From Alphaproteobacteria bacterium (GTDB taxonomy: Bacteria > Pseudomonadota > Alphaproteobacteria > Rhodobacterales > Rhodobacteraceae), in the NCBI GenBank assembly GCA_030431935.1, contig JAUIIC010000006.1:1-41812 (forward strand): 41,812 nt of DNA, read 5' to 3'. The position numbers were made by a program, and so were the translations under genes. Positions within the stretch are counted from its first letter, which is position 1. Every line of letters starts with the position of its first letter. Below, piece by piece: positions 15,712-37,331 of the stretch. The notes under the pieces were generated by a model, which saw only the letters and a list, made by a program, of their open reading frames with translations, was not told the DNA's origin and searched no databases.

Positions 15712-15728
15712 GGACTTGTTCCTTCGTT

Positions 15729-18245: not shown

Positions 18246-18896
18246 TCAGTAGGCGCCGCGCGCGGTCAGAACCGCGGTCACGGTGCGCAGAAGGATCGAG
18301 ATGTCGGTGCGCAGCCCGGCGGTGCGGGCATAGGCGATGTCGAGCGCCACCATCTCCTCGAAGCCGAGGTCGGCGCGGCCGGACACCTGCCACAGCCCCG
18401 AGATGCCGGCCGGAACGCTCAGCCGTTCCAGCGCCGCGCGCGGGTAGGCGGCGACCTCTTCGGGCAGGGCCGGGCGCGGGCCGACAAGCGACATCTCGCC
18501 CTTCAGCACGTTCAGAAGCTGCGGCAGCTCGTCCAGCGAGGTGCGGCGCAGGAGACGGCCCACGGGTGTCACGCGCGGATCGCGGCGCGCCTTGAAGCAA
18601 ACGCCGTCACGGTCGCTGCCGGCAAGGACTTCGGCGCGGCGCGCCTCTGCATCGGCGTACATCGAGCGGAACTTGATCATCCGGAAGGGCACGCCGCCCT
18701 GGCCGATACGGGTCTGCACGAAGAAGACCGGGCCGGGGCTGGTCAGGCGCACGGCCAGCGCGGCCACGGCACCCACTGCGAGGGCGGGCAGCGCCAGGGC
18801 GCCGACAACGGCCAGGTCCAGGGCGCGCTTGGCGGTTAGCGGACGGGCGTCGGCAAAGGGCAGCGGGATCGGCGGGTTGGTGGATTGCATCGTCAT
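18246..18896 (-). CDS. Priming sugar-phosphate transferase (undecaprenyl-phosphate, WcaJ/ExoY type)
   Basis: 216 residues from ATG 18896, with GAGG upstream. Transfers the first hexose-1-phosphate to undecaprenyl phosphate to start repeat-unit assembly. It is the short form: one N-terminal hydrophobic segment (about residues 30-50) and the catalytic bacterial sugar-transferase domain. Motifs are KRALDLAVV at the membrane entry, TSPGPVFFVQTRIGQGG, MIKFRSMY, SLDELPQLLNVLKGEMSLVG with PRP following, and GISGLWQVSGR. The sugar (glucose, galactose or another) cannot be decided from sequence. It lies between the chain-length gene and rfbC in the operon. Confidence 0.92.
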   Translation of the reverse strand: MTMQSTNPPIPLPFADARPLTAKRALDLAVVGALALPALAVGAVAALAVRLTSPGPVFFVQTRIGQGGVPFRMIKFRSMYADAEARRAEVLAGSDRDGVCFKARRDPRVTPVGRLLRRTSLDELPQLLNVLKGEMSLVGPRPALPEEVAAYPRAALERLSVPAGISGLWQVSGRADLGFEEMVALDIAYARTAGLRTDISILLRTVTAVLTARGAY

Positions 18897-18930
18897 TTTC
18901 GGATCCTCGTTACGAAACGAATGGGTTGGG

Positions 18931-20985: not shown

Positions 20986-21824
20986 CAGCGGGCCTCCCGC
21001 GTGGTCAGGTCACGCTCCCAGCGGCGGGCGCTGTCGGGGCGTTCCATGGCCAGCGCCAGGCGCACCGCCGCGCCCAGGGCGGCGAACACCAGCATGTCGG
21101 CCCAGCGCGAGGGACGGCGCATCGCCGCCCGCAGCATCCCGCCGGCGCTGCCCGCCGCGTGGCGCGCGCCGAGGCGCGCCCGCACCGCCCGCGCACCGCG
21201 CAGGCTGCGGCGGCGCACCGCGAAAAGCGCGGGCAGGCTGCGCGGCGCTGCGGCGGTGAAGGCACAGGCCGGGACAAAGGCCGTTTCATGCGGGGCAAAG
21301 GAGCGGCGGATATACTCGTCGTCGGCGGTCACTTGCGGAAGGGGAAAGACTCGCGCGGCACCCATTGGCGACAGGGCGAAGAGCCCGCCGAACTTGCCGT
21401 TGGCGAAGTAGGGGTTGAGCGCCCAGGCCCGGTAGTAGGCGCGCACCGCCGCGCTGGCACCGGCAGTGTCGGCCCGCATCCGGCCGCAAGCGGCCAGGGC
21501 CGCGCCGGACAGAAGCGGCGCGATCAGCGCATCGAGCGACTGCGGCGTGACGACGAGATCCGCGTCAAGACAGATCAGCGGCAGGTCGGCCGCCGCCTTT
21601 GCCCGGCCCAGGTTCAGCGCGTGCGTCTTGCCCGGGATCGCGGTCTCCAGAACCGTCGCCGAGGGCAGGGCCGCGCGGGCCACCCGTGCCGTGGCATCGG
21701 TGCAGCCGTTGGCGATCACGATCACATGAAAGCGCGACACCCCCCGGAACGGGGCCAGCGTGCGGGCGATCACCGCCGCCTCTTCATTGGCGGGCACGAG
21801 GATGGTGGCGAGACGCGTGCTCAT
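20985..21824 (-). CDS. Family 2 glycosyltransferase
   Basis: 279 residues from ATG 21824, overlapping the previous stop (ATGA). A GT-A fold transferase that adds a sugar to the lipid-linked repeat unit at the cytosolic face. The N-terminal VPANEEAAVIARTL, ICLDADLVV (DxD-like) and TADDEYIRRSF are GT2 marks. A C-terminal hydrophobic stretch (about residues 240-262) may anchor it to the membrane. The donor and acceptor are not predictable. The longer open frame extending to 22766 is a run-through of another gene's antisense frame and is not part of this protein. Confidence 0.87.
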   Translation of the reverse strand: MSTRLATILVPANEEAAVIARTLAPFRGVSRFHVIVIANGCTDATARVARAALPSATVLETAIPGKTHALNLGRAKAAADLPLICLDADLVVTPQSLDALIAPLLSGAALAACGRMRADTAGASAAVRAYYRAWALNPYFANGKFGGLFALSPMGAARVFPLPQVTADDEYIRRSFAPHETAFVPACAFTAAAPRSLPALFAVRRRSLRGARAVRARLGARHAAGSAGGMLRAAMRRPSRWADMLVFAALGAAVRLALAMERPDSARRWERDLTTREAR

Positions 21825-22399
21825 GCGCGTGCCCCCCGCGGCCAGCCCGTGCGCACCGGCAGCGCGGGCGCCTCGCGGTCCCAGATGAAACCGCGCAGGG
21901 CGAGGATCAGTTCTTGCGCGGCGGTTTCGTTGCCGCGGTCCCGAAGCGCCGGGATGGCGCGGGTTTCGGCCAGCCTGTCGAGCGCCGCAGCAAGCGCTGG
22001 CGCATCCCCGGCGACCGTCACGTTCGACAGGTGCGCCATGCGGCGGGCGGTGTCCGCCTGGTGGTCGTTGCGATGCTCGGCCTGGCTGGCAAGGCGCGGC
22101 ATCACGACCAACGGCTTGCCCAGTTCTGCGCAGGACAGGATCGTGCCCATGCCGGCATGGGCGACCACCAGGTCGGCCTCGGCGAGGCAGGCGTCGAAGC
22201 GGCGCTGGTCGATGAAGTCGACGGCGCTCAGGTGACTGTAGCGGGCGTGATCCCGGCCGGTCTGCGCCAGGACCGCGGCATCGCAACGGCGCGCGGCCCA
22301 ATCGTTCAGTGCCATCATCAGGCGCGGGAAGGGCAGCTGGGTGCCGGCAATCGCGAACACGCGCAGGCTGCCCGAGGGATAGCGGATGACTTCGGTCAC
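21821..22399 (-). CDS. PssE/Alg13-like catalytic half of split glycosyltransferase
   Basis: 192 residues from GTG 22399; the GTGA junction with the upstream PssD-like stop supports this start over the longer reading. It corresponds to the C-terminal, donor-binding half of a GT28-type enzyme, with AHAGMGTILSCAELGKPLVV and the following MPR as the diagnostic sugar-nucleotide binding stretch. In rhizobial PssD/PssE and eukaryotic Alg14/Alg13 the two halves form one enzyme. Rhizobial pairs add glucuronic acid, so a uronic acid in this polymer is possible but unproven. It is coupled downstream to a GT2 gene. Confidence 0.85.
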   Translation of the reverse strand: MTEVIRYPSGSLRVFAIAGTQLPFPRLMMALNDWAARRCDAAVLAQTGRDHARYSHLSAVDFIDQRRFDACLAEADLVVAHAGMGTILSCAELGKPLVVMPRLASQAEHRNDHQADTARRMAHLSNVTVAGDAPALAAALDRLAETRAIPALRDRGNETAAQELILALRGFIWDREAPALPVRTGWPRGARA

Positions 22400-22869
22400 A
22401 GCACGGACCCCCGGAACTCGGCGCCCTGTGCGGCGGCCACATCGGGCCACTGCGACAGCACGCGGTCGGCGACGCCGAGGGACAGGCGCGCCGAAACCGA
22501 CAGCTGCCGCGCATTGGCGATGGAATCGATGAAGATCGTCCGCGCGCCCAGCAGACGGGCGATGCGGATGGCCATGTAGCCCCCGGCGGCGCCGGTCGAG
22601 ACCACGACGTCCGGACGCACCCGAAGCACGATGCCCAGCATGGTCGCGGCAGAGAGGAGCAGCCGGAGCGGCGTTCGGGCGTTCGCGTCAGGGTAGAGAT
22701 GTAGAGGGGCTGGTGCCACGACTTCCGCCGCGCTTGGATCGACGGTCGCGAAGTGGACGTCGGCACCCTCGAAGGCAGCGCGCAGGCGCATCAGCTGGGC
22801 CCAATGCCCGCCGCCGGAGGCGACGGCGAGCACGCGGGGGGAACGATTGCGGATCTTGGCGGAAAGCAT
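22396..22869 (-). CDS. PssD/Alg14-like membrane half of split glycosyltransferase
   Basis: 157 residues from ATG 22869 (AGAGG about 8 nt upstream). The N-terminal LAVASGGGHWAQLMRL is the typical Alg14/PssD opening. The central hydrophobic segment around LRLLLSAATMLGIVL could bind the membrane, and VVSTGAAGGY is family-typical. It would recruit the PssE-like partner, encoded with a 4-nt overlap, to the membrane and bind the lipid acceptor. It is preceded by a 104-bp gap, one of the few real gaps in the cluster, which contains a CTATCC/GGATAG palindrome that may drive a secondary promoter. Confidence 0.85.
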   Translation of the reverse strand: MLSAKIRNRSPRVLAVASGGGHWAQLMRLRAAFEGADVHFATVDPSAAEVVAPAPLHLYPDANARTPLRLLLSAATMLGIVLRVRPDVVVSTGAAGGYMAIRIARLLGARTIFIDSIANARQLSVSARLSLGVADRVLSQWPDVAAAQGAEFRGSVL

Positions 22870-22973: not shown

Positions 22974-22989
22974 CTATCCCTTGGGATAG
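22974..22989. promoter_or_regulatory. CTATCC-N4-GGATAG palindrome, copy 1 (inside polysaccharide cluster)
   Basis: CTATCC-CTTG-GGATAG overlaps the stop codon of the GT4 gene and lies 105 bp upstream of the pssD-like start. It shares spacing and half-sites with sites at 31369 and 32292. It is either a regulator site for an internal promoter or a small hairpin; the shared sequence favours the former. Confidence 0.45.
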
Positions 22990-24206
22990 GCCGTGGCGCA
23001 TTCGCGCGGCGCGACGATACCTTGGTAAAGGTCGACCATACGGTCGGCCTTGTGTGGCCAGAGGCCGTCGCGCGCGATCTTGGCGTGCGCGTTCTCGCCC
23101 AGGGCTTCGCGCCGCCCGGGGTCCAGGGCAAGAGCCCGCGCGGCCTGGGCGATTCGCCGGGCGAAATCGCCGGGCTCGGTCACCGGGATGCGCAACCCGC
23201 AGCTGTCGTCCACGATCCAGTCCGGGCCGCCCCGCGCCGCGGTGATGACCGGCAGGCCGTGGCGCATCGCCTCGTAGAGAACGCCGCCCGCAGGCTCGCG
23301 GAAGGACGGAAAGCAGAAGACGTCGTGGGTCTGGTAGAGCGTTTCGATCTCGTCGCGCGGGCGGCGGCCAAGGAACGTCACCCGGTCCTCCAGACCCAGG
23401 CGTTGCACCTCTGCCCGGCAGGGGGCCAGCTCCTCGCCGTCGCCGGCGCTGGTCAGGGTGATCCCGGGCAGGTCGCGCAGGTGGTCGAGCGCGCGGATGG
23501 CATCGCGAAGCCCCTTGGTGCGGACCCCGCGCCCGACATGCAGAAGGCGCAAGGCCCTCGGCGTGCCGTTCCGGGCGACCTTTGGCGCGATGTCGTCGGC
23601 CCCAAGCTCCAGCACCGGTTCGAACCGGCGCAGGGGGATGTCGCCCAGGACGTCGCGCACGTAAGGCGCCACCCCCAGCACAAGGTCGGCGTCGGCATAG
23701 CTGGCGCGCAGCCACGGATCGTGGCGAAAGCGGAAGCCGTCGAGCTGGCGCATGCGGGTGAAGGCGGGGGCAGAGCCGGCCTCGTCCCGAAATGCCTCGG
23801 GCGTGTCCAGTGCCCCGCCAAGAGGGCCGATGACATAGGGAATGCCCGACTTGTGCAGGGGCGAGGCATAGCGTGCGGCCTGCGGCATCAGCTGGTGCGC
23901 GACGTCAAAGGCCTCTCCCCGCGCGCGTGCGTCCTTCAGCCAGTTGCGGACGTGGCGGGAAAACACCGGCCAGGCGGGCTTCAGCATCGCGTTCAGGCGT
24001 TCGTGCTTCAGCGCCCAGCCGGGTTCGGGCCAGCTGACCACGCGGGCCCCGGGCAGTTGGCCCGCCGGATCGGGGCGCCCCGGCCGGTGGAACGTAAGTA
24101 GCGTCAGGTCGGTTCGCGCGGCCAGCGCCTCGACCCATTTGAAGGCGACATAGGCCTCGCCCACGTCGGTGGCGTCGACGTTCGGCGCGATGACAAGCAG
24201 TTTCAT
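22974..24206 (-). CDS. Family 4 (GT-B) glycosyltransferase
   Basis: 410 residues from ATG 24206, overlapping the GT2 stop (ATGA). A retaining GT-B enzyme. The C-terminal nucleotide-sugar domain has RLLHVGRGVRTKGLRDAI and the EX7E motif in FREPAGGVLYEAM, then HGLPVITAARGG. The N-terminal acceptor domain starts MKLLVIAPNVDATDVGEAYV. It would add one sugar of the repeat unit on the cytosolic side; specificity is unknown. Much longer upstream in-frame sequence exists but overlaps the well-supported GT2 gene in another frame. Confidence 0.88.
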   Translation of the reverse strand: MKLLVIAPNVDATDVGEAYVAFKWVEALAARTDLTLLTFHRPGRPDPAGQLPGARVVSWPEPGWALKHERLNAMLKPAWPVFSRHVRNWLKDARARGEAFDVAHQLMPQAARYASPLHKSGIPYVIGPLGGALDTPEAFRDEAGSAPAFTRMRQLDGFRFRHDPWLRASYADADLVLGVAPYVRDVLGDIPLRRFEPVLELGADDIAPKVARNGTPRALRLLHVGRGVRTKGLRDAIRALDHLRDLPGITLTSAGDGEELAPCRAEVQRLGLEDRVTFLGRRPRDEIETLYQTHDVFCFPSFREPAGGVLYEAMRHGLPVITAARGGPDWIVDDSCGLRIPVTEPGDFARRIAQAARALALDPGRREALGENAHAKIARDGLWPHKADRMVDLYQGIVAPRECATAYPKG

Positions 24207-25126
24207 GCCGCGACACTCCGGGGCCAGGTGCGGGCAAGGTCGGCCACGACGCGGCGGAAGTGGCGCGCGCGGTCCGCGGCGCCGGGGCGCACGGCGCGCG
24301 CCAGCGTCCAGAAGATGGCACGCGAAAGGTTGAACCCCGCCAGCAACAGCCAGCAGGCCAGCCCGGCCGCGAACCCGCCGTGCTTGCGATGCAGGCGCAC
24401 GGTGGCCTCGGTCAGCATCGTGTCGCGCTTGTGGTTCAGCCGCCGGACCGACCCGCCGCCGAAATGGGTGATCTCGCCCACCGGGGCGAAGACCAGCTGC
24501 CAGCCCGCATCGGCGAAGCGGCGGCACCAGTCGGTTTCCTCGCCGTAGAAGAAGAACGCCTCGTCCAGCAGTCCCACACGCTCCATCGCCGCGCGGCGCA
24601 CGAACATCGCGCAGCCCGACACGACCTCGACCGCGCGGGTGTCGCGCCGGTCCCAGCCGGTCATGCGGTAGCCGTCGAAGGCGGCGATGCGCGTCAGGCC
24701 GAGGGTTTGCAACGCCAGATGGCGCAGCGAGGGAAAGCGCGACGTCGAGGCCTGCGTTGTCCCATCGGTGTTCAGCACGCGCGGCCCCATCACGCCGGCT
24801 TCGGGATGGGCGTCGAGCCAGGCGACGGACCGTTGCAGCACGTCGCCATGCACCAGCGTGTCCGAGTTCAGAAGCAGCACGTGCCGCCCCGTGGCCATCG
24901 CCAGCGCCTGGTTGTTGGCGGCGGCAAAGCCCCGGTTCTTGGCATTCACGATGACGCGCGCCTCGGGGAAGTCGCGGGCGACCATCTCGGGCGAGCCGTC
25001 TTCGGATGCGTTGTCCACGACCCAGATTTCGGCCTTCAGATCGCCAAGGCCTTCGCGGACAGAGGCAAGGCAGTCGGACAGCATCTGGCGGGTGTTCCAG
25101 CTGACGATGACGATGGACAGGTCCAT
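24203..25126 (-). CDS. Family 2 glycosyltransferase (rhamnosyltransferase-like)
   Basis: 307-residue GT-A enzyme with SIVIVSWNTRQMLSDCLAS at the start, VVDNASEDGS, the NAKNRGFAAANNQAL block, NSDT (the DxD-type metal motif) and FFFYGEETDWCRR. This combination is typical of WbbL-like rhamnosyltransferases, which fits the dTDP-rhamnose genes in the same operon, though specificity is inference. AAGGAG lies 8 nt before the ATG. It is 12 bp downstream of the polymerase-like gene and coupled to the GT4 gene. Confidence 0.88.
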   Translation of the reverse strand: MDLSIVIVSWNTRQMLSDCLASVREGLGDLKAEIWVVDNASEDGSPEMVARDFPEARVIVNAKNRGFAAANNQALAMATGRHVLLLNSDTLVHGDVLQRSVAWLDAHPEAGVMGPRVLNTDGTTQASTSRFPSLRHLALQTLGLTRIAAFDGYRMTGWDRRDTRAVEVVSGCAMFVRRAAMERVGLLDEAFFFYGEETDWCRRFADAGWQLVFAPVGEITHFGGGSVRRLNHKRDTMLTEATVRLHRKHGGFAAGLACWLLLAGFNLSRAIFWTLARAVRPGAADRARHFRRVVADLARTWPRSVAA

Positions 25127-25138
25127 GTGCGGGCTCCT

Positions 25139-26470
25139 TCAGAACAGGCGTGCGGGTTGGGTGGGCGCGACCCGCCGTGCGGCGGCGCGGCCCTTGAATG
25201 GCGGGCGTGGTTTCGCGGGCCGGGCGTCGAGCAGCCATGCCCCCGACCCGATGAGAAAGATGAACAGCACGAACAGCGCGTTCCACAGGTGCACCGTGCC
25301 CGCGGCGACGGTGATCCCGAACAGCGTGAAGGCCCAGGCATGGCGCGCCCGCTTCCAGTCGTCGGGCAGGCCCTTGCGCTGGGCCACGGCATAGATCAGC
25401 CCCAGCATCAGCGCGACAAGGAAGACCAGCGCCGGCAGGCCATAGCGGACCGCGATCAGCAGCCAGAAATTGTCCATGCTGTCCGACATCCAGACGGGCC
25501 GCACCCAATCGCCCAGCCCGATGCCGAAGACCGGGTGCCGGACGACCTCTGCCGTGCCGTATTCGAAGATCAGGATGCGGTTATAGGCGGACTGCGGCGA
25601 GAAGGTGAAGTTCTCGACGAAGATATGAAAGGGCGTGCGGTTCGACAGAAGGTCGATGCCCAGGTAGATCGCGCCGAAGATCGCGAAAAGGATCGTCCAG
25701 CGCCCCTTGATGCCGTTCAGCGCCCGCTCCCACCCCGCGACGAAGCCCTGCATCATCAGGACGACATAGGGACCGCCGGACGCCGACATGAAGGTGGCGA
25801 CCCCGACCCCCAGCACCTTGGCCATGCCGCCCATGTTCATCAGCCGCCGCTCGGCCACCACGAAATAGGCCAGCGAGAAGGCGGCGGCACAGAAGACCCC
25901 GTAAAGGATCGGGTGATCGAACGGGCCGAAGGTGCGTTCCAGCCCCATGCGCTTCTCGATGAAGGGCGCGGCGGGCCCGCCGGTGGGAATGGACAGCGTG
26001 TCGTGCAGGATATGGATGCCGGTCAGCGCCTCGGGGATGGTGAAGGGCAGGGTGGCCAGCACGATCCCGACATAGGCGCGGGCGAAGGCGGCGAAATCCT
26101 CGTAGCTGCGGATATAGACCCGGCCCAGCAGGTAGGCGCCAAGGAACTCCACCGTGTAGATGCCGCCCGACTCGATGCCCTGCGCCAGCCCGCCCCACTT
26201 GATGAGCGCCATCACCGCCCAGGCCGCGTGCGCCATCGCGAAGGCGTCGAAGATCGTGACCCGCCCCGCGGCGCCCGAAAGAAGCCGCAGCAGCATCGGA
26301 AAGAACATCACGATCAGAAGGACCCGGTAGACCGAAAGGCGCAGGCCCCCCGCGCTGACGCCGACCGAGGTGGGCAGCATCATGCCCAGGAAGAACAGCG
26401 CCACCACCACGGGCACCCCGAAGATGCGGCGCGGTTGCCGGTGCGCAGGAAGGGCGGCGGAAACGGTCAT
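25139..26470 (-). CDS. Wzy/O-antigen-ligase-like polysaccharide polymerase
   Basis: 443-residue integral membrane protein with about 10-12 hydrophobic helices and a larger periplasmic loop before HPVFGIGLGDW, a motif position shared by O-antigen polymerases and ligases. It is the only candidate in the cluster for polymerising lipid-linked repeat units at the periplasmic face (Wzy-dependent pathway, with the flippase and Wzc-like gene nearby). The basic, proline-rich tail (about residues 415-443) is cytosolic or disordered. The ATG overlaps the acyltransferase stop (ATGA at 26467-26470). An O-antigen ligase cannot be excluded. Confidence 0.78.
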   Translation of the reverse strand: MTVSAALPAHRQPRRIFGVPVVVALFFLGMMLPTSVGVSAGGLRLSVYRVLLIVMFFPMLLRLLSGAAGRVTIFDAFAMAHAAWAVMALIKWGGLAQGIESGGIYTVEFLGAYLLGRVYIRSYEDFAAFARAYVGIVLATLPFTIPEALTGIHILHDTLSIPTGGPAAPFIEKRMGLERTFGPFDHPILYGVFCAAAFSLAYFVVAERRLMNMGGMAKVLGVGVATFMSASGGPYVVLMMQGFVAGWERALNGIKGRWTILFAIFGAIYLGIDLLSNRTPFHIFVENFTFSPQSAYNRILIFEYGTAEVVRHPVFGIGLGDWVRPVWMSDSMDNFWLLIAVRYGLPALVFLVALMLGLIYAVAQRKGLPDDWKRARHAWAFTLFGITVAAGTVHLWNALFVLFIFLIGSGAWLLDARPAKPRPPFKGRAAARRVAPTQPARLF

Positions 26471-27471
26471 TCGGCGGCCTGCATCCGTGGTGTGCGCACC
26501 GCGCGCAGCGCGGGGGCCTCGACAAGGGTCCAGCTCAGCCAGGCCACCGGCAGCACCGTCAGAAGGCTCGCGGCGGCCAGCGCCGGCGGCGACATGTTAC
26601 CGGCAAGGTGGACGATCATCTGGGCCACCGGCCAGCCGTAGATGTAGATGCCGAAGGACAGGTCCGCGGGAAGCGGGCGTGCGGGCAGCCGCCAGCCCAC
26701 CAGCAGGGCGGCATAACCCAGCGCGATCACGCCGAAGGCCCAGCCGCCGATCGTCAACGCGAAGACCCACAGCAGAGCCCCGATCTCCCAGCGCAGCGGA
26801 AGCACCGCCCGGCAGCGCCAGGCCACCATGCCCAGCGCGAAGGCCAGCCAGAGCGGGGCGAAGACGTCGACCCGCGGCAGGTAATCGGCCATCCACGAGG
26901 CATTCGCCCAAAGGATCACGGCCATGAGCAGGAAGGCATCCGGCGCGCCGCGCGGACGCAGGACACCCATGCGGACGGCAGCGAAGGCCAGCACATAGGC
27001 GGCGACCTCGTAGAACAGGCTCCACAGCGGGCCGTTCACGGCCCCCGGATAGGGGTTGGCGGCCCATGCGCCCGGCAGGTTGTGCTCGATCGACACCAGC
27101 GTCAGGCCCCGCAGCACATATGCCAGCGCCAGCCCGGGGTCGGCATGACCGCCCGAAAGTACGGCCAGCGCAAGCCCCAGCACCAGCGCGACGAACAGCC
27201 CGGGCAGGATGCGCAGGGCGCGGCGGCTCCAGAAGGCGGCGGCGGCATGGGTCTCGGCGCTGGCGGTGATCAGCACGCCCGACAGGAAGAAGAACAGGCC
27301 CACCGCCCAGCCGCCCAGCGAATGGCCGGTCAGGGCCTTCAGCGGTTCCGCCGTGCCGGGGCCCATCGCCAGGGGCCAGGCATGGCTGACGACGACGGCG
27401 GCGGCGGCGGCAAGCCGGATCAGGTCGAGGTTGTTGTGCCGGCCCGTGCCGCGCACCTGCTCAAACGTCAT
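26467..27471 (-). CDS. OafA-type membrane acyltransferase (acyltransferase 3 family)
   Basis: 334 residues from ATG 27471. A polytopic inner-membrane enzyme that transfers acetyl or another short acyl group onto a sugar. The N-terminal NNLDLIRLAAAAAVVVSHAW carries the family's conserved Arg and active-site His. FFFLSGVLI and NGPLWSLFYEV are further acyltransferase-3 marks, and about ten hydrophobic helices follow. It overlaps the FrhB-like stop by 11 nt and the polymerase start by 4 nt. It predicts O-acylation of the polymer. Upstream extension to 27738 lies inside the preceding gene and is rejected. Confidence 0.88.
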   Translation of the reverse strand: MTFEQVRGTGRHNNLDLIRLAAAAAVVVSHAWPLAMGPGTAEPLKALTGHSLGGWAVGLFFFLSGVLITASAETHAAAAFWSRRALRILPGLFVALVLGLALAVLSGGHADPGLALAYVLRGLTLVSIEHNLPGAWAANPYPGAVNGPLWSLFYEVAAYVLAFAAVRMGVLRPRGAPDAFLLMAVILWANASWMADYLPRVDVFAPLWLAFALGMVAWRCRAVLPLRWEIGALLWVFALTIGGWAFGVIALGYAALLVGWRLPARPLPADLSFGIYIYGWPVAQMIVHLAGNMSPPALAAASLLTVLPVAWLSWTLVEAPALRAVRTPRMQAAE

Positions 27472-28723
27472 GGCCCGGCTCCATCCGGATGGGGCGCCAA
27501 AGCGCCTGCGACAGGATGCGCCGCAGGCTGCCCGCGACCGACTGCACCTGTGCGCGAAGGGGCAGGTGCCGCCAGAAGCGGAAAAGAGGCAGGCCCTTTT
27601 CCTTGGGCACGGGAAGCCCGGCGACGCGCATCGCCAGCCGACGGCCCCATACCGCGCCCATGGTGGCGGCCAGGTTCGGCTGGGCCCGGGCGACGACATC
27701 GCGCGCGCGGGGCTCCGCGACCAGAGCACCCGCGGCAATCGCGGCCTCGATCAGGCGGCGGCCGCGCGGCGTGCGCGCCAGGATCAGCGAGCGGCCCGGT
27801 TCCGGCGCACCGTTAACGGGCGGGGCGTGCCAGGGATCGCCCACGGCAATGTCGGCAAAGGCCGCGGTATGATCGGTGCAGATCCTGCAGCGCCATTGGC
27901 GGCCCTTTTGCAGCAGGTCCCAGCCCGTGGCATAGCTGACGCGTTCGCTGTCATGCGCTGTGCCGTCCGCGTCGATCCAGCGCGCCTGCATCGTGCCGGG
28001 CCAGCCTTCGCCGCGATAGCGCAGCGCGGTGATCTGCGCGCCCTCGGGCACGCCCAGTTGGCACAGCAGGGTTTCGGACGAGCTGCGGTTGGGGGCACCG
28101 GCGCAGAAGATGCCGATGGTCAGGGCCAGGCTGTCGGCCAGCTGCGGATCGGCTGCGGCGGCGCGCGCGGCAGAGGCGATGTCGCAGGGCTTGCCGATCA
28201 GCGCGGCGCTGCGGCCGGCCTCGGCGATGGGGCCAAGCGCCTCGCACGGGCTGGCCTGGGCATAGCGAGAGCCGGAACCGCGCAAGAGACCGGCGCGGTT
28301 GGTGCTTTGAACGGCAACATTTTCAAGGGGATCGGCCTCGCTTGCCGCGATATGGGCGACGCTGTCCACGGCACCGGTCTCCAGCGCGAAGAGCGCCAGC
28401 GCGGTGACCGCGCCGCCCGAAGATCCGCGATAGCGGATCTCGGGGTCAGCGGCCCAGCCTTCCCATGCGGCCAGCACGGGCCCCCACATCTCGTCCACGG
28501 CATCGCGGCGCGGCAGCGCGGTATGGTCCGTTTCGGCGCCAGCGCACAGGCCGATGGCGGCCTCTGCCGCAGCGCGCCCGGCGGGGCCGGAGGCGACGAC
28601 GGGGCGGCGCCCGTGAACCGGGTGCTCGATCATGCGGATGGCCTCGGGAAAGGCGCCGGCGCAGGCGCCGCAGCCGGTGCAGAGGTTGCAGGCGACGGCG
28701 CGGGTGATGGGATCGGTCGTCAT
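27461..28723 (-). CDS. FrhB/F420-hydrogenase beta-subunit-like Fe-S protein in polysaccharide cluster
   Basis: 420 residues from ATG 28723, which overlaps the flippase stop (ATGA). It resembles the coenzyme F420 hydrogenase/dehydrogenase beta family. The N-terminal ferredoxin-like stretch is CNLCTGCGACAGAFP with Cys12, 15, 18 and 21; the usual fourth cysteine of CxxCxxCxxxCP is Phe25, perhaps replaced by Cys12. RYRGSSGGAVTALA and the CRICTDHTAAFADIAVGD block are family hallmarks. Such proteins recur next to polysaccharide pyruvyl transferases in many bacteria. They are often annotated as oxidoreductases of unknown substrate; F420 itself is unlikely to be the only cofactor here. Cytosolic by sequence. 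Function unassigned. Confidence 0.82.
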   Translation of the reverse strand: MTTDPITRAVACNLCTGCGACAGAFPEAIRMIEHPVHGRRPVVASGPAGRAAAEAAIGLCAGAETDHTALPRRDAVDEMWGPVLAAWEGWAADPEIRYRGSSGGAVTALALFALETGAVDSVAHIAASEADPLENVAVQSTNRAGLLRGSGSRYAQASPCEALGPIAEAGRSAALIGKPCDIASAARAAAADPQLADSLALTIGIFCAGAPNRSSSETLLCQLGVPEGAQITALRYRGEGWPGTMQARWIDADGTAHDSERVSYATGWDLLQKGRQWRCRICTDHTAAFADIAVGDPWHAPPVNGAPEPGRSLILARTPRGRRLIEAAIAAGALVAEPRARDVVARAQPNLAATMGAVWGRRLAMRVAGLPVPKEKGLPLFRFWRHLPLRAQVQSVAGSLRRILSQALWRPIRMEPGHDV

Positions 28724-29955
28724 GCAGGGCACTCCTTGGTCAGGGGGTGGCGCAGGATGTCGCGCGCCAGAAGATGCGCGCGCAGAGTGGCGGCGGCCTC
28801 TCCTGCGGCGGCGGCAAGGGCGAGGACGGCAAGCGGAAGGCCGGCGGCGGCAAGCGCCACGGCGGGAAGGATGGCGGCCGCCCGCCAGAGATTGGCGCGT
28901 GCCGGATCGCCGGTGCGGCCGGTTGCGACCGCAAGCTGGGAGTAGGGCGCGCGCAGGATGCGGAACGCCGCAGCGCCCGCGAGGCCGGCGGCGAGCAGAG
29001 CGTCGGGGCGGAATTCCGCGCCATAAATCAGTGCGATAGCGCCCGGTGCGGTCAGCGCGAAGCCCCAGGCGAACAGGACGGCAAGGGCCGCGTGAGCGCG
29101 CACCGAATGGCGGGCGGCGGCGGCGAGATTGCCGCTGGCGATGGCATCGGCGAAGACCGGGGCCAGCAGCGAGTTGGCCGCGCGCGAGACGATCTGCGCG
29201 GGAAGAAGCGCCAGTTGGAGGGCGATGCCATAGAGCGCCACCTCGGCCCAGCCATAGCCCGCCGCGACGATCAGCCGGTCCGCCTGGAAGGTGAGAAACA
29301 TCAGTCCCGCGTTCAGCAGAAGCGGCGCGCCGAAGCTCCAGCATTCCGCCAAGACCTTGCGATCGAACGATATTTCATAGCGGCGCCGGGCGACGGTGCG
29401 GGACAGGAGCAAGAGTGCCAGGCCCTGCGCGATGAGGGCGGCGGCCATGGCCCAGTGGGTGCCGAGGATCAGGGCGGCGGCCAGGGCTCCGGCAAGCATG
29501 GCAAGGGTGCCGCCCAGTTCGACGACGGCGAAGGCGCGGTAGTCGCGGCGGCGTTCGGCACGGCGATAGTCGAGGTGCAGGACCGACCGGAAGAGCGGGA
29601 CCAGCGCCAGCGACAGGTAGGCCCAGGCGGACGGGCCGTCTGCGAAGGCCAGCGCCATGGGCAGGGCCAGCGCCGCCATCAGCGCCGCCATCGCCAGCCC
29701 GCGCAGGATCACCGCGCCGTGCAAAGCTGCTTGAAAATCAGGGTCTTCGCCGCGTGGCGAGCGGATCAGGAGGCGTTCGATTCCGATGTCGCTGGCCATC
29801 TCCACAAGGCGCAGGGTCAGCGCCAGGAGCATGGCGCGGCCAAGCTCCTCGGCGCCGATCAGGTGCGCAAGCAGCAGGGACCGGGCGAAGGCCCCGGCCT
29901 CTGCCGACAGCGGCACGATCCAGGCCAGAAGCCGAGATGACAGGCGGGTGTTCAT
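28720..29955 (-). CDS. Wzx-like polysaccharide flippase (MATE/PST superfamily)
   Basis: 411-residue inner-membrane protein with about 12 hydrophobic helices, typical of oligosaccharide flippases that turn undecaprenyl-linked repeat units to the periplasm. Family marks include SDIGIERLLIR in the first loop and FQADRLIVAAGYGWAEVALY in the centre, where the Asp-Arg pair sits in a helix. It is the only flippase candidate in the cluster. The gene starts 3 bp after the pyruvyl transferase stop and overlaps the FrhB-like start. Length is normal for Wzx. Confidence 0.87.
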   Translation of the reverse strand: MNTRLSSRLLAWIVPLSAEAGAFARSLLLAHLIGAEELGRAMLLALTLRLVEMASDIGIERLLIRSPRGEDPDFQAALHGAVILRGLAMAALMAALALPMALAFADGPSAWAYLSLALVPLFRSVLHLDYRRAERRRDYRAFAVVELGGTLAMLAGALAAALILGTHWAMAAALIAQGLALLLLSRTVARRRYEISFDRKVLAECWSFGAPLLLNAGLMFLTFQADRLIVAAGYGWAEVALYGIALQLALLPAQIVSRAANSLLAPVFADAIASGNLAAAARHSVRAHAALAVLFAWGFALTAPGAIALIYGAEFRPDALLAAGLAGAAAFRILRAPYSQLAVATGRTGDPARANLWRAAAILPAVALAAAGLPLAVLALAAAAGEAAATLRAHLLARDILRHPLTKECPA

Positions 29956-29958
29956 GGC

Positions 29959-31218
29959 TCAGACCTGTGCCTCGGCGATCTGCGCGACGATGGTGTCCAT
30001 CTGCGAATCGGCACGTCGGCGTAACGTCGGCAAAACGTCGGCAAGACGTCGGCGCAGCGCGTCGCGGTCGCGGTAGGAGGCGGCGACGCGTTCGGCCAGC
30101 GCCGCGGCGTCATGGGTGCGCAGGTCGGCGACCTCTGCCCCGATCCCGCATTCGGCGAAGACGCCCGCCGCCTTGTCCGAATAGCCAAGACCGAGCGTCG
30201 GCGTTCCGGACGAGAAGGCGCCGATGGTGGCGTGCATCCGCGCGCCGGCGAACCAGTCGAACCGGGCGAGGCACCATTTCAGCTGCATCGCGTCTAGCGG
30301 CGCGTCGAGCACGCGCACGCGGCCCGGGTAGTCGCCGGCGAGGCGCAGCTGAAGCTTCCACGCCGCGCCAAGGTCGCTTTCGGCATCGGTGGGCGGGCGG
30401 TGGACATGGGGCAGCAGCACGAGACGCAGCGCCTGGTCGCTGTCGAGGAGCGCGCGCGCGGCGGCCTCGATCTGGGTGGGGTGGTTCTGGGCAAGGCCAA
30501 AGCGGATCTGTGCCGCGGCGGGCTCCAGCGTCAGCAGGCCCGAGACGTTCAGCCCGGCGACCGGCGCATCCCGGTCCTCGGCCAGCCACTTGCGGACCGA
30601 GGGGCAGAGCCGGTCACCCGGGTCGGCGCTGGGCAGGCCCACGGCCATGTCGACGCCAAGCCGGTGGCGGTCCGGGTCGAAGGCATCGCCGAGGATGTCC
30701 TGCAGAAAGGCGTGGCTGGCGGCGTCGCGCACCCAGACGGCATGGGCAGCGCGCAGGATGCGCGCGGCCTCGGCCCGGTTGCGCGGATCGACGAAGGGCC
30801 CCAACGTCTGCGGCAAGAGGATCAGCGGGCGGCGGGCATCGAGTGCCAGCCGCTTGGTCAGCACCATGGCGCGAAACCGCTTGGGCCCGTAGAGGTCGGT
30901 AAAGCTGTCGCCGCCCGATACGTCGAGGATGGCGCGCGATCCGGCGATGGTGCGCGCGGTCGGGCTGAACCCGCCGCCGACGCGGATCAGGGCGTGCACG
31001 GTGCGCAGCGTGTCGGCGCGCCAGATCCGGCGGGAATGGGTGAGGCCGATGCGCTGGGCGCCCTCGATCCCCCAGGTGCCCGGACGCAGGCCGCGACCGT
31101 GGTCGGCGACGGCCACCGGGCCGGCATCGCGGGCGGCAAGGCCCGAGAGCGCCGAGAGGCAGAGGGCGGTGACGCCCTGGTTTCCGGTGTCGGGGGCGGC
31201 GTTGAGAAGCGTGATCAT
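29959..31218 (-). CDS. Polysaccharide pyruvyl transferase family protein
   Basis: About 419 residues from ATG 31218 (MITLLNAAPDTGNQG); an earlier ATG at 31260 is possible because no strong ribosome site decides. The family (CsaB/ExoV/WcaK) transfers pyruvate from PEP to form a ketal on a sugar. Visible marks are NAAPDTGNQGVTAL at the start, DVSGGDSFTDLYG, ILLPQTLGPF and, near residue 330, GARMHATIGAFSSGTPTLGL followed by GYSDKAAGV. It is probably the first gene of the polysaccharide operon, 340 bp downstream of the response regulator gene. Four 11-bp tandem repeats lie near its 3' end, where length change would shift the reading frame. Confidence 0.87.
   Translation of the reverse strand: MITLLNAAPDTGNQGVTALCLSALSGLAARDAGPVAVADHGRGLRPGTWGIEGAQRIGLTHSRRIWRADTLRTVHALIRVGGGFSPTARTIAGSRAILDVSGGDSFTDLYGPKRFRAMVLTKRLALDARRPLILLPQTLGPFVDPRNRAEAARILRAAHAVWVRDAASHAFLQDILGDAFDPDRHRLGVDMAVGLPSADPGDRLCPSVRKWLAEDRDAPVAGLNVSGLLTLEPAAAQIRFGLAQNHPTQIEAAARALLDSDQALRLVLLPHVHRPPTDAESDLGAAWKLQLRLAGDYPGRVRVLDAPLDAMQLKWCLARFDWFAGARMHATIGAFSSGTPTLGLGYSDKAAGVFAECGIGAEVADLRTHDAAALAERVAASYRDRDALRRRLADVLPTLRRRADSQMDTIVAQIAEAQV
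30013..30056. repeat. Four tandem 11-bp repeats (ACGTCGGCxxx) in the pyruvyl transferase gene
   Basis: ACGTCGGC recurs at 30013, 30024, 30035 and 30046 with an exact 11-bp period (units ending GTA, AAA, AAG and GCA). The array lies about 54 nt before the stop codon of the pyruvyl transferase. Since 11 is not a multiple of three, gain or loss of a unit changes the frame of the C-terminus. Confidence 0.9.
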
Positions 31219-31558
31219 GTTCGGCGGGTCCGGGGCTGATGTATGGGTTGGCGCCTGCATACCCCTGGCGGCCCGCACACGTCTCGGTGGTAGGCGGATA
31301 GGTCGGGTATACACACGGCGGGCGGCATGGCCGATGGCAGCGCTCCGCTAGCCCAAGGCAGGGCCGGGCTATCCGTTCGTATAGGGTTTTCCGGGGCAGG
31401 GAGGGGCTGCGGCGGCGCCATGCCGACGCGCGCGGGCCCGGCATGGGACCGCGACGCGTGGGTCGGGAAAGGGGGCGGGGCCCGGTCAAGGCCCGGTGGA
31501 TGCCCGCGGATCGACCGAGGCGGCGCGCCGGGTCAGGGCATCGCGCCGTGCCGCGGGA
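31219..31558. other. 340-bp intergenic region upstream of the polysaccharide operon
   Basis: No supported gene. It should hold the operon promoter and the end of the response regulator transcript. Visible items are the CTATCC-N4-GTATAG site (31369-31384), a GTATAC at 31307-31312, and an 8-bp inverted repeat CCATGCCG/CGGCATGG (31418-31425 with 31439-31446, 13-nt loop) that could be the response regulator terminator. The open frame at 31327-31638 has no family features. Confidence 0.5.
31369..31384. promoter_or_regulatory. CTATCC-N4-GTATAG near-palindrome, copy 2 (upstream of polysaccharide operon)
   Basis: CTATCC-GTTC-GTATAG is identical in spacing to the sites at 22974 and 32292, with one mismatch in the right half. 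It is 151 bp upstream of the pyruvyl transferase ATG, a position suited to an activator site for the polysaccharide operon. Confidence 0.5.
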
Positions 31559-32176
31559 TCAGACGATCCCGGCGTCCTTGGCAATCATTGCGGCATGGGT
31601 GCGGTTGCGGGCGTCGAGCTTGCGCGACAGGGTCTTGACGTGCAGCTTGACGGTGACCTCCTGCAGGTCTAGCTCGCGCGCGATTTCCTTGTTCGAGAGC
31701 CCCTGCGCCAGCCCTTCGAGCACCTGCAGCTCGCGCTCGCTGAGCTGTTTTGCCAGCGGGTGCTGGGGGGCCGGTTCCTCGGCCTCGCGCATCACCGACA
31801 TCGGCATGTAGGTCTCGCCCGCCAGCATGAAGTTGATGGCATGCACCAGCGACTTTCCGGCGATGGTCTTGGGCAGAAAGCCGATGGCGCCGGCGTCGAT
31901 GGCCTCGCGCGCGACGGTGGCCGGGGCGTTGCCCGAGAGGATCGCCACGGTGCGGGGGCCGTTCAGTTCGATCATGCGGGCCAGACCGTCGAGGCCGTTC
32001 ATGCCCGGCATGGTGTAGTCGAGGAGCACGAGGTCGTACGTGCCGTCTTCCTTGACGCGGGCGATGGCGTCGTCGAGCGAGACCGCCGTGCGCGTTTCGA
32101 ACCCGCCGCCGTTGGCGAGGTAGGCGGCAACGGTATCGCGGACCAGATCGTGATCGTCGGCAACCAGAACTTTCAT
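31559..32176 (-). CDS. NarL/FixJ-type response regulator (LuxR HTH)
   Basis: 205-residue two-component regulator. The receiver domain (1-120) has the acidic pair in VADDHD, phospho-acceptor Asp53 in LLDYTMPGMNG, and Lys103 in GFLPKTI. A LuxR-type helix-turn-helix (about 143-200) reads LSERELQVLEGLAQGLSNKE then IARELDLQEVTVKLHVKTLS. It would be phosphorylated by a histidine kinase or HPt domain, dimerise and bind DNA. The only kinase in view is the hybrid kinase encoded divergently, whose C-terminal HPt makes a phosphorelay to this regulator plausible. A perfect CTATCC-N4-GGATAG palindrome lies 115 bp upstream, compatible with autoregulation. No clear ribosome site is seen. Confidence 0.93.
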   Translation of the reverse strand: MKVLVADDHDLVRDTVAAYLANGGGFETRTAVSLDDAIARVKEDGTYDLVLLDYTMPGMNGLDGLARMIELNGPRTVAILSGNAPATVAREAIDAGAIGFLPKTIAGKSLVHAINFMLAGETYMPMSVMREAEEPAPQHPLAKQLSERELQVLEGLAQGLSNKEIARELDLQEVTVKLHVKTLSRKLDARNRTHAAMIAKDAGIV

Positions 32177-32290
32177 AGGTTGTTATTCCAGCCTTCCGTT
32201 TTCCCCCCTTACCGGGGTGGTGAGATAAGCGCGTGTCGTGGAACTGTCACGTGCGAAAAGGCATTGCGGCGGTCCCGATCGAGACATGAT

Positions 32291-32308
32291 ACTATCCTTT
32301 CGGATAGT
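32291..32308. promoter_or_regulatory. ACTATCC-N4-GGATAGT perfect palindrome, copy 3 (divergent promoter region)
   Basis: Perfect 7-bp inverted repeat around TTTC in the 217-bp gap between the response regulator (115 bp away) and the molybdopterin-fold protein gene (86 bp away). It is the best copy of the motif also found at 22974 and 31369 and is the likely operator of this control block. Confidence 0.55.
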
Positions 32309-32370
32309 CCGCTATGCGAATGCGCACCTGACGCAACTCGCGCCTTAGCGTATCTGGAGGCGCAACAGTG

Positions 32371-32383
32371 TTTCCGTCGGAAA
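32371..32383 (+). promoter_or_regulatory. Inverted repeat overlapping ribosome site of molybdopterin-fold gene
   Basis: TTTCCG-T-CGGAAA is a perfect 13-bp palindrome whose right arm runs into AAAGGGA, the probable Shine-Dalgarno sequence of the gene starting at 32394. The one-base centre disfavours an RNA hairpin; it could be a protein site or chance. Confidence 0.3.
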
Positions 32384-32393
32384 GGGATTTGCC

Positions 32394-32921
32394 ATGTCGA
32401 GCGTGCTGGGGTTCGTCAGGAACGGAGTGATCGCGGCGGCCTTCGTGCTGGGCGCCGGAGCGGTGGCGTTTGCGCAGGACGCGCTTCCCGCGCCGCAGGG
32501 CGACGTGGTCCTGACGGTGTCGGGGGCGATTGCCGTGACCAATGACGGCGAGACGGCGACGTTCGATCGGGCCATGCTCGAGGCGATGCCGGCCGAGACG
32601 TTCCGCACCACCACGATCTGGACCGAGGGCGAGCAGGAATTCACCGGCGTGCCGCTGGCCGCGCTTCTGGAGCGGCTGGGCGTGAGCGCGGGCACGCTGG
32701 TTGCCACGGCGATCAACGATTATTCGGCAGAGATGCCGGTGGCCGATGCGTTGCAGGCCGGGCCGGTGCTGGCCTACCTGCAGAATGGCGCGCCGATGTC
32801 GCGCCGGGGCAAGGGGCCGCTCTGGATCGTCTATCCCTATGACGCGAGCGCGGACTTCCAGACCGAGGTGGCGTATTCGCGCAGCGTCTGGCAGCTCGAC
32901 CGGCTGACGGTGGTTCCATAG
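32394..32921 (+). CDS. Exported sulfite-oxidase/molybdopterin-fold protein without cysteines (PruR-like?)
   Basis: 175 residues with a signal peptide (hydrophobic core about 10-25, cleavage near AVAFAQ). The mature part resembles small oxidoreductase-molybdopterin-binding (SUOX-fold) proteins: VLTVSGAIAV, FTGVPLAALLERLGV, then RGKGPLWIVYPYD and the terminal SVWQLDRLTVV. The protein contains no cysteine, so the thiolate that ligates molybdenum in true enzymes is absent and catalysis is unlikely. In Agrobacterium the periplasmic PruR has this fold, binds pterins and controls the membrane protein DcpA. Here the gene is 13 bp upstream of a hybrid histidine kinase, so it is probably the ligand-binding partner of that kinase. 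The ligand is not known. Confidence 0.78.
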   Translation: MSSVLGFVRNGVIAAAFVLGAGAVAFAQDALPAPQGDVVLTVSGAIAVTNDGETATFDRAMLEAMPAETFRTTTIWTEGEQEFTGVPLAALLERLGVSAGTLVATAINDYSAEMPVADALQAGPVLAYLQNGAPMSRRGKGPLWIVYPYDASADFQTEVAYSRSVWQLDRLTVVP

Positions 32922-32934
32922 GGCCCGGATAGGA

Positions 32935-35529
32935 ATGCAGCCGGGACCTCCAAAACCCAACGGATACCGGCTGAAGCGCGCCGCGGCAACGCGGCGCGCA
33001 TGTATCGTTCTGGGCGCCTTGTTCGGCCTGATCCTCGGGCTGATCGCCATGTCGGCGCTGGACACGGTGCGCAAGGTCGATGCGCTGGCGACCGCCAATT
33101 CCGACAACGTCCAGTGGACCCTGTCGCAGGTCGAGGTCGAGCTTGTGCGGCTCGAATTCGCGATCCTGAGCGCGCATGACGGGCTTGCGACGCTGGGCGA
33201 CGTGCGGCGGCGCTTCGATGTCTTCTACGATCGCGTGGACATCATCACCAACGGGTCGGTCTATGCCGGGGTGCTCGATGCAACCGACGCGCGGGAGGCC
33301 AAGAACGACCTGTGGCTGATCCTGGAGTCGTCGGTGGCCCTGATCGACGGGCCCGACGACGTGCTGCGCGGCGCCCTGCCGGACCTGGCGGATGCGTTCC
33401 GTGACCTGCGCCCGGCCGTGCGCGAGATCGCGCTGGAGGGCGTGCGCGCGCTGGCCGAGCGATCCGACCAGCAGCGCGAGGCGGTGGCGGGCACGCTGGT
33501 GCGTCTGGCGTTCCTGACCACGGCGCTGTTCTTCCTGCTGGGGCTGGGCCTGTTCGTTCTGGCCCAGATGAACCGGCAGGTGCAGCGCCGGCAGATGGAA
33601 TACCAGGTCACCGCCGCGCGGTTGAACGCCATCGTCGCCACCTCGCAGGACGCGGTGGTTGTCGCCGATGTCGAGGGCCGGCTGCTGGATTTCAACGGCG
33701 CGGCGGAAAAGATCTTTGGATATCAGGCGGCCGAGGTGCTGGGGCGCAGCATGTCGGATGTGATCGTGCCCCACCACATGCGCGACGCCCACGAGGCCGG
33801 GATGGACCGCTACCGCCGCACCGGACAGCGCAAGGTCATCGGGCGCGGCCGCATCCAGCTGGAGGCGCGGCGCCGCTCGGGCGAGGTCTTTCCGGTCGAG
33901 ATGTCGATCAGCAGCACCGAAAGCGAAGAGGGCGAGATCTTCGTGGCCTTCATCCGCGACATCTCGGCCCGCAAGGCCGCCGAGGCCGAGTTGCTGAAGG
34001 CGCGCGACGACGCGCTGGCGGGCGAGAAGGCCAAGGCGCATCTGCTGGCGGTGATGAGCCACGAGATGCGCACGCCGCTGAACGGGCTTCTGGGCACGAT
34101 GGACCTGATCCGCGACACGGCGCTGAACGAGAAGCAGCGCGAATACCTGCGCATCATGGAAACCTCGGGGCAGTTGCTTCTGCATCACGTGAACGACGTT
34201 CTCGATGTCTCGCGCCTCGATTCCGATCGGGCAGAGGCCTATCGGGTGGGCTTCGACCTGTCGGCGCTTGTCCGGCAGGTGGCCGAGATGCAGCGCCCCC
34301 TGGCCGCCGTGCAGCGCAATGCCCTGACGCACCGGGTTCAGGATGGGCTGGCCTCGGTCGTGGGCGATCCGGCCAAGGTGCGGCAGATCGTGGTCAACCT
34401 GCTGGCCAACGCGATCAAGTTCACCGTCGACGGGCATGTCGGCATCGAGGCGGAACGCCTTGGCGACGGCGACATGGTGGAAATCCGCGTGACCGACGAT
34501 GGAATCGGCATCGCCGAGGAGCACCTGGAGCGCGTGTTCGAGGATTTCTACACCATCGATTCCACCTATGGCCGGTCCGCCGGGGGCACCGGCCTTGGCC
34601 TTGCGATCACGGCGCGACTGGTGCGGCTTCTGGGGGGCGAGATCGGCGTCGAGAGCGAGCCGGGCGAAGGCAGCCTGTTCTGGGTGCGGCTGCCCCTGCC
34701 CGCGGCGGACACGGGCGGAGCCGGGCGGGAAACCGTGGTCGTCGACGTGCAGGGGCCGCCGACGCGGTCTCTCTCGGTGCTTGTGGTCGAGGACAACGCC
34801 ATCAACCGTCAGGTCGTGCGCGAGATGCTGGTGGCGCTGGGCCACCGGGTGACAGAGGCCGTCGACGGCGCCAAGGGCGTGGCGGCGGCGGAGGCGGAGG
34901 CCTTCGACCTGATCCTGATGGACATCAGCATGCCGCAGATGGACGGGCTTGAGGCGACGCGCCGGATCCGCGCCGGGGGAGTGTCCCAGGACGCGCCCAT
35001 CGTGGCGCTGACCGCCCATGCGATGCCGTCCGAGGTGGCGCGCTTTCGCGAGGCGGGGATGACGGACGTGGTGACCAAGCCGATGACACGCCGCCGCCTG
35101 GCCGAGGTGCTGGGCATGGTTTCGGCCGATCGGGGCGGCGCCGGGGGTGCGGCGGAGGCGCCCGGCGAGGACGCGTTCGCAGAGCTTGTGGCGACGCTTG
35201 GCGCCGAGGCCGCCGCAGCCGCCTGGGCGCGATTCGTCGAGGAGGGCGACCTCCTGGCCGGTCGGCTGCGGACGCTGGCCGGGGGCGCGGAGGCCGCGCC
35301 CGGCGACCGCGACGAGGTGCACCGCATCGCCGGGTCGGCGGCGGTGCTGGGGGCCGGTGCGATGGCCGCCGCGCTGCGGCGCTTGGAAACGGCCCTGCGA
35401 CAAGGGGGGCGGGTGGCAGAGGCCGCGGCCGCCGCGGTCGCGGCATGGGAACAGGTGCGCGGCAGGCCCGTCGAGGCCGGGACCCCGGACGACGCTTCGG
35501 CGGCCGCCGACGCGGACGAGGGGCGTTGA
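32935..35529 (+). CDS. Hybrid sensor histidine kinase (PAS-HisKA-HATPase-REC-HPt)
   Basis: 864-residue membrane kinase. Helices at about 22-42 and 192-212 flank a periplasmic, apparently all-helical sensor region (43-190). Then come a PAS domain (about 228-345), HisKA with phospho-His376 in MSHEMRTPLNGLLG, a HATPase domain (VVNLLANAIKF N-box, DDGIGIAEE, GGTGLGLAIT), a receiver with Asp663 in LILMDISMPQMDG, and a C-terminal HPt with His796 in HRIAGSAAVLGA. All phosphotransfer residues are intact, so a four-step relay ending on a separate regulator is expected; the divergent NarL-type protein is the obvious candidate. The ATG follows GGATAGGA with very short spacing. It probably senses the exported molybdopterin-fold protein encoded just upstream. 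Confidence 0.93.
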   Translation: MQPGPPKPNGYRLKRAAATRRACIVLGALFGLILGLIAMSALDTVRKVDALATANSDNVQWTLSQVEVELVRLEFAILSAHDGLATLGDVRRRFDVFYDRVDIITNGSVYAGVLDATDAREAKNDLWLILESSVALIDGPDDVLRGALPDLADAFRDLRPAVREIALEGVRALAERSDQQREAVAGTLVRLAFLTTALFFLLGLGLFVLAQMNRQVQRRQMEYQVTAARLNAIVATSQDAVVVADVEGRLLDFNGAAEKIFGYQAAEVLGRSMSDVIVPHHMRDAHEAGMDRYRRTGQRKVIGRGRIQLEARRRSGEVFPVEMSISSTESEEGEIFVAFIRDISARKAAEAELLKARDDALAGEKAKAHLLAVMSHEMRTPLNGLLGTMDLIRDTALNEKQREYLRIMETSGQLLLHHVNDVLDVSRLDSDRAEAYRVGFDLSALVRQVAEMQRPLAAVQRNALTHRVQDGLASVVGDPAKVRQIVVNLLANAIKFTVDGHVGIEAERLGDGDMVEIRVTDDGIGIAEEHLERVFEDFYTIDSTYGRSAGGTGLGLAITARLVRLLGGEIGVESEPGEGSLFWVRLPLPAADTGGAGRETVVVDVQGPPTRSLSVLVVEDNAINRQVVREMLVALGHRVTEAVDGAKGVAAAEAEAFDLILMDISMPQMDGLEATRRIRAGGVSQDAPIVALTAHAMPSEVARFREAGMTDVVTKPMTRRRLAEVLGMVSADRGGAGGAAEAPGEDAFAELVATLGAEAAAAAWARFVEEGDLLAGRLRTLAGGAEAAPGDRDEVHRIAGSAAVLGAGAMAAALRRLETALRQGGRVAEAAAAAVAAWEQVRGRPVEAGTPDDASAAADADEGR

Positions 35530-35617
35530 GCCGTCAATTCCTTAGCATGTGAAGGAAAGGGCTTCGCAGAGCGGGCGCCGGGCACTAGGCTGGCCGCAGG
35601 GTCTGGGAGGACAGGGC

Positions 35618-37306: not shown

Positions 37307-37331
37307 GGCCAGAGCAAAAGGGGAAACCACG

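Follow-up and report, generated by a model that had tools for sequence, protein, structure and literature searches.

Genes for PruR, a periplasmic pterin-binding protein, are widespread in pairs with kinase genes, and no output is named for these pairs in a 2026 review (PMC13259868). In the arrangement called PruR-DTB (DcpA-TorS-BaeS), pruR is followed by the gene for a regulator that joins a DcpA-type periplasmic domain with a WX7E motif to a two-component kinase, as in Ruegeria pomeroyi DSS-3 (WP_011045932.1) (PMC13259868). What, then, does such a kinase control? The question is raised by a stretch of 41,812 nucleotides, here called the window, which comprises positions 1 to 41,812 of contig JAUIIC010000006.1 (assembly GCA_030431935.1) from an alphaproteobacterium of the Rhodobacteraceae. 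The window contains a pruR-like gene, a hybrid histidine kinase gene, a divergent gene for a NarL-type response regulator and a polysaccharide gene cluster (Table 1). The initial annotation had proposed that the PruR-like protein works through a kinase relay, in place of a cyclic di-GMP (c-di-GMP) enzyme, and switches this polymer. That proposal appears well supported by the pterin-contact residues of PruR, the WX7E domain of the kinase, the linkage of the three genes and the operators at polysaccharide promoters. On comparison of sequences we consider it probable that the locus encodes a PruR-DTB sensory system with an output branch of its own, in which pterin-bound PruR would gate a His-Asp-His-Asp relay to the NarL-type regulator, its operator and the polymer genes.

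Is the small protein a PruR? As first annotated, the reading frame encodes an exported protein without cysteine; it has 175 amino acids, and its stop codon lies 13 bp before the kinase ATG (32935) on the same strand. There is a Sec-type N-terminal signal ending AFA-QD, an Oxidored_molyb domain (Pfam) and similarity to four Protein Data Bank (PDB) sequences, 7rkb (3e-35), 7kos (4e-33), 7kp2 (6e-25) and 7kom (2e-18), all deposited under pterin-binding or Oxidored_molyb names. 7KOS is the PruR of Agrobacterium tumefaciens and 7KP2 that of Vibrio cholerae with neopterin (PMC13259868). Residues N108, Y110 and W166 are invariant across 16 homologues, align with the PDB PruR sequences and agree in spacing with N102, Y104 and W160, the pterin-contact residues of A. 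tumefaciens PruR (PMC13259868). The features that define a PruR, namely a length of about 170 amino acids, a secretion signal, a SUOX-like domain, the lack of a molybdenum-ligating cysteine and the Trp, Tyr and Asn of the pterin site, are all found. Sequence similarity to solved structures is enough to settle the PruR fold, and pterin is the presumptive ligand. A molybdenum enzyme was also considered; this identity is ruled out because there is no cysteine and the match is of PruR type. Pairs of PruR with an EAL protein (DcpA-type) are found at L141:7312-10853 and L143:6714-10399, and these adjoin pterin-synthesis genes. In Paroceanicella profunda the neighbour is a gene for 6-carboxytetrahydropterin synthase, and on Paracoccus liaowanqingii plasmids it is folE2. 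Such neighbours are independent support for a pterin ligand.

The kinase has the domain order transmembrane segment, periplasmic domain (W61, E69), transmembrane segment, PAS, HisKA (H376), HATPase_c, receiver (REC, D663) and histidine phosphotransfer (HPt, H796) in Pfam, with the HPt match scoring 28.4 bits against a cutoff of 24.6. H376, D663 and H796, listed as intact by the initial annotation, are His, Asp and His at those positions, and are kept in 118, 118 and 114 of 118 related kinases, respectively. In the same set the W of the WX7E motif (W61-X7-E69) is present in 113, and the E in 100 with D in a further 15. A profile of the kinase periplasmic N-terminus matches the PruR-linked EAL proteins of Paroceanicella and Paracoccus (4e-16 and 1e-12, within a small target set). 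GGDEF and EAL output domains are not present in the window kinase, kinase domains standing in their place (Pfam). The best NCBIfam kinase match is TorS, at 343 far under the cutoff of 676.5. On every sequence feature tested the window pair reads as a PruR-DTB, and relatives keep the same order of pruR and kinase genes. Loci L130-L134, L137 and L101 have the regulator and a DTB-like kinase with no pruR detected between them.

Might the wiring be right and the signal not be a pterin? PruR could have a different small molecule as its ligand, or it could only modulate a main input that comes from redox state or the PAS domain. The cytoplasmic PAS domain is strongly predicted, and L131-L134 are without a pruR gene between regulator and kinase, yet the pterin-contact residues are invariant, the closest structures are pterin-binding proteins and the related PruR-EAL pairs adjoin folE2 and 6-carboxytetrahydropterin synthase genes. 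We therefore judge a non-pterin signal unlikely and retain pterin as the probable ligand of the PruR-DTB system.

Does the divergent gene belong to this system? It encodes a NarL-type regulator, as had been proposed, and has the NarL/FixJ-type features of a receiver with phospho-acceptor Asp and Lys and a GerE DNA-binding domain. Orthologues are present in 47 of 100 family genomes. The initial annotation had suggested a survey of the linkage across genomes. A set made up of 80 named genome contigs from a single scan and the loci of relatives, with four duplicates removed, gives 136 distinct PruR loci; the regulator-pruR-kinase triad is kept in 101 of them, with the regulator nearly always divergent. 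Because the loci share ancestry, these counts are not independent.

The palindrome that had been noticed in the control regions of these genes and of the polysaccharide operon is borne out (operators 1 and 2), and there is a third copy that the initial annotation did not report (operator 3). Operator 1 is 94 bp before the pruR ATG and 123 bp before the regulator ATG. The generalised 16-bp pattern CTATMCNNNNGKATAG (CTATMC-N4-GKATAG) has exactly three matches in the 4.03-Mb genome, all in the window, and the reversed pattern has none in the genome; were placement random, the other two sites would fall inside the same 17.6 kb with a probability of about 2e-5. This fixed pattern replaced an open listing of palindromes in long intergenic stretches, which was dominated by GC-rich chance palindromes. 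Upstream of pruR an exact site is found in 60 of the 101 triads and a one-mismatch site in 25 more (85/101 in total), the pattern having been generalised only after the first relatives were viewed, with which the named loci partly overlap. The shuffle control upstream of pruR gave a mean of 0.05 at up to one mismatch, and loci without the regulator have such a site in 6 of 32 cases. The site has a median distance of 73 bp upstream from the estimated start of pruR. In most pruR promoters a third half-site, CTATCC, follows about 20 bp on from where the palindrome starts; in the window, 32312-32317 reads ctatgc.

Which protein binds the palindrome? An exact site is present in 32 of the 47 family genomes with a regulator orthologue versus 7 of the 53 without (p 1.5e-8). 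Two genomes, G004 and G035 (loci L099 and L100), have the regulator and no detected pruR, and operators are still near the regulator. The recognition helix, TVKLHVKT, is almost invariant, and all 95 triads that have a site keep T175, K177, L178 and H179. Because the sites track the regulator, persist without pruR and accompany this near-invariant helix, the regulator is favoured as the putative binder. A comparison of operator variants (CTACCC versus CTATCC) with helix residues for covariation is uninformative because the helix is invariant. Could the palindrome instead be bound by another regulator, such as a global factor, with the kinase having a different partner and the neighbouring regulator being a passenger? 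The seven regulator-free genomes that carry a site would fit this, but their 8 sites across 53 genomes are few enough for chance, and the association with the regulator, also where pruR is missing, and the invariance of the helix where the site is kept make such a binder distinctly improbable. At L099 and L100 the same regulator, operators and exopolysaccharide (EPS) genes are beside a different PAS hybrid kinase, an apparent case of sensor swapping. Additionally, at L103, L104 and L109 (G073, G031 and G038) an exact palindrome precedes an rluD-type gene, followed by a sigma-70/RpoH-like gene; this is possibly an extra target or a conserved coincidence.

With the NarL-type regulator as the favoured binder, are the polysaccharide genes its target? 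The 16-gene cluster of the initial annotation stands up to gene-by-gene family assignment. Four genes serve dTDP-rhamnose synthesis, and among the others are those for a flippase, a pyruvyl transferase, an acyltransferase, several glycosyltransferases, a chain-length/tyrosine-kinase-like protein and a priming sugar transferase. Across 69 named triad loci there are 31 exact sites outside the pruR upstream position, and 29 of the 31 lie 86-195 bp before a gene. The genes after those 29 sites are chain-length-determinant-like, the regulator or a WecG/sugar transferase gene divergent from the regulator, or a Wza-type export and flippase pair. Forty random 20-kb regions (796 kb) have zero exact sites. 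In G006 an EPS cluster on another contig than the triad has one of the three sites in that genome. Sulfitobacter faviae and Ruegeria sp. B32 have the triad within EPS clusters on annotated plasmids, and other triads adjoin mannose-guanylyltransferase/UDP-glucose-dehydrogenase clusters (L058). Eight other genomes have the 443-aa marker protein of the window cluster at 66% identity or more, and in 4 of these 8 it is beside the triad. A position of the operator on the upstream side of the presumed core promoter points, if weakly, to activation of the polymer genes. RTX calcium-binding repeat proteins, possibly surface-polymer associated, are encoded next to operators or the regulator at L058:11189-13801 and L107:8390-10177.

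The evidence on a pterin-responsive system with a polysaccharide target does not all point one way. The genome does contain a PruA-like short-chain dehydrogenase/reductase (G000:C280) with the motif TGAGRRIG (TGX3RXG), the kind of companion gene that the initial annotation had suggested looking for; its identity to E. coli FolM, the one query used, is no more than 27%, it scores under the pteridine-reductase model cutoff, and its place in that family is tentative. In favour of the polysaccharide target, three or more EPS marker families are near 41 of the 101 triads versus 0 of the 40 random regions, in a comparison biased towards the clusters of the window, L138 and L058, from which the markers were drawn, and 44 of the 101 have no EPS marker family within about 10 kb. 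No site within one mismatch is found at 16 of the 101, and polysaccharide may therefore not be the target everywhere. The regulator also adjoins other PAS hybrid kinases without PruR, and is therefore not tied to the PruR sensor. Is the neighbourhood then incidental, the triad residing in a region that collects surface-polymer genes without regulating them? Polysaccharide islands and plasmids gather many genes, and the triads without markers would agree with this. However, the operators are at polymer gene promoters, including the unlinked cluster of G006, and do not occur in the 796 kb of control DNA, and we regard an incidental association as very improbable.

A PruR-DTB relay acting on the polymer genes would work as follows. 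By analogy with A. tumefaciens (PMC13259868), exported PruR would bind a reduced pterin in the periplasm and then dock on the kinase at its periplasmic WX7E domain. Docking would shift the kinase/phosphatase balance, and the domain order suggests a phosphate route from H376 to D663, to H796 of the HPt domain and to D53 of the regulator. The operator evidence suggests that a regulator dimer may bind CTATMC-N4-GKATAG before its own gene, the pruR-kinase pair, the polysaccharide operon and an internal promoter, and the bound regulator would set the synthesis of a rhamnose-containing, pyruvylated polymer. For the family as a whole, the evidence leans towards a broader statement: Rhodobacteraceae PruR-DTB systems with a dedicated NarL-type regulator and operator code, often with the third half-site, would be a pterin-responsive phosphorelay over diverse EPS clusters, and since the regulator-operator module would also be driven by other sensor kinases, the sensors would be interchangeable.

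If true, a pterin-sensing kinase would for the first time have a defined transcriptional output, and pterin control of surface polymers would reach beyond c-di-GMP to two-component control of transcription. For PruR-kinase pairs, this locus and the related ones offer a candidate partner regulator with a putative operator and presumptive target promoters, so that the targets of pterin-sensing kinases become directly testable in culturable marine bacteria.

Table 1. Coordinates of the sensor, regulator, operator and polysaccharide features in the window
Feature	Position	Strand	Basis or remark
RmlA (start approximate)	14809..15720	-	PF00483
RmlD (start approximate)	15729..16616	-	PF04321
RmlB	16607..17647	-	
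RmlC (start approximate)	17644..18213	-	PF00908
Priming sugar transferase, EPS_sugtrans-like (start approximate)	18246..18899	-	PF02397, 2e-59
Chain-length determinant/tyrosine-kinase-like (weak match)	18931..20985	-	NCBIfam EpsG 7e-8, under cutoff
GT2 glycosyltransferase (start approximate)	20985..21833	-	
GT28 C-terminal-domain (Alg13-like) subunit (start approximate)	21821..22450	-	
PssD/Alg14-like glycosyltransferase subunit	22396..22869	-	
GT4 glycosyltransferase (start approximate)	22974..24210	-	
Operator 3 (putative), CTATCCCTTGGGATAG	22974..22989	.	Overlaps last GT4 codons, ~112 bp before PssD/Alg14-like start codon
GT2 glycosyltransferase	24203..25126	-	
443-aa protein, cluster marker	25139..26470	-	No Pfam or NCBIfam match
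Acyltransferase 3	26467..27738	-	PF01757
FrhB/FdhB-like protein (start approximate)	27461..28723	-	PF04432/PF04422
Polysaccharide flippase (Wzx-like)	28720..29955	-	PF13440
Polysaccharide pyruvyl transferase (true start possibly internal)	29959..31314	-	PF04230
Operator 2 (putative), CTATCCGTTCGTATAG	31369..31384	.	Between regulator end and pyruvyltransferase operon
NarL/LuxR-type response regulator	31559..32176	-	Pfam REC+GerE; D53 phospho-acceptor, K103, recognition helix TVKLHVKT
Operator 1 (putative), CTATCCTTTCGGATAG	32292..32307	.	Between regulator and pruR
pruR-like gene, periplasmic SUOX-fold pterin-binding-type protein	32394..32921	+	PDB sequence matches, N108/Y110/W166
DTB-type hybrid histidine kinase	32935..35529	+	Pfam, conservation in 118 kinases, periplasmic profile

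The genes 3' of the kinase on its strand (35549-37895) encode a thiamine-diphosphate enzyme (PRK08327-type) and an AhpD-like peroxidase-related protein; neither recurs 3' of the kinase in the relatives compared.

How far is this system already known? The PruR-kinase pair itself is not new, because PruR-DTB has been described (PMC13259868), and in this part the novelty seen by the initial annotation does not hold. For the regulator, operator and polysaccharide regulon it may hold, none of these having been met for PruR-DTB in the literature searched, a scope outside which lies the primary 2024 PNAS paper (Greenwich et al.), which may already name a response regulator linked to the pair. The window pair is like PruR-DTB in having pruR directly before the kinase, the DcpA-type periplasmic domain with WX7E, and PAS, HisKA, HATPase and REC domains. 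It differs in a C-terminal HPt domain, the divergent NarL-type regulator, the shared operator and the candidate polysaccharide target. The published example is drawn with a receiver domain at its end and no HPt, the DTB section of the review mentions none of these four additions, and its text as a whole has neither the term "response regulator" nor mention of an operator or target (PMC13259868).

With the PruA-PruR-DcpA system of A. tumefaciens the window shares a periplasmic SUOX-fold pterin-binding-type protein that would act via the periplasmic domain of a membrane protein, and, if the proposal is right, a surface polysaccharide as output. There the output is through c-di-GMP synthesis and breakdown, whereas here it would be through a phosphorelay and a transcription factor. 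The TorS/BarA/ArcB-type phosphorelays with NarL-family regulators likewise combine a HisKA-REC-HPt kinase with a REC-GerE regulator, and the window differs from them in its sensor, PruR with a WX7E periplasmic domain. Operators of the NarL family are tail-to-tail palindromes of short half-sites. The putative operator of the window is also a palindrome of short half-sites, as is the CTACCC-N4-GGGTAG of some relatives, but it differs in its CTATCC half-sites, its 4-bp spacing and the conserved third half-site 20 bp on.

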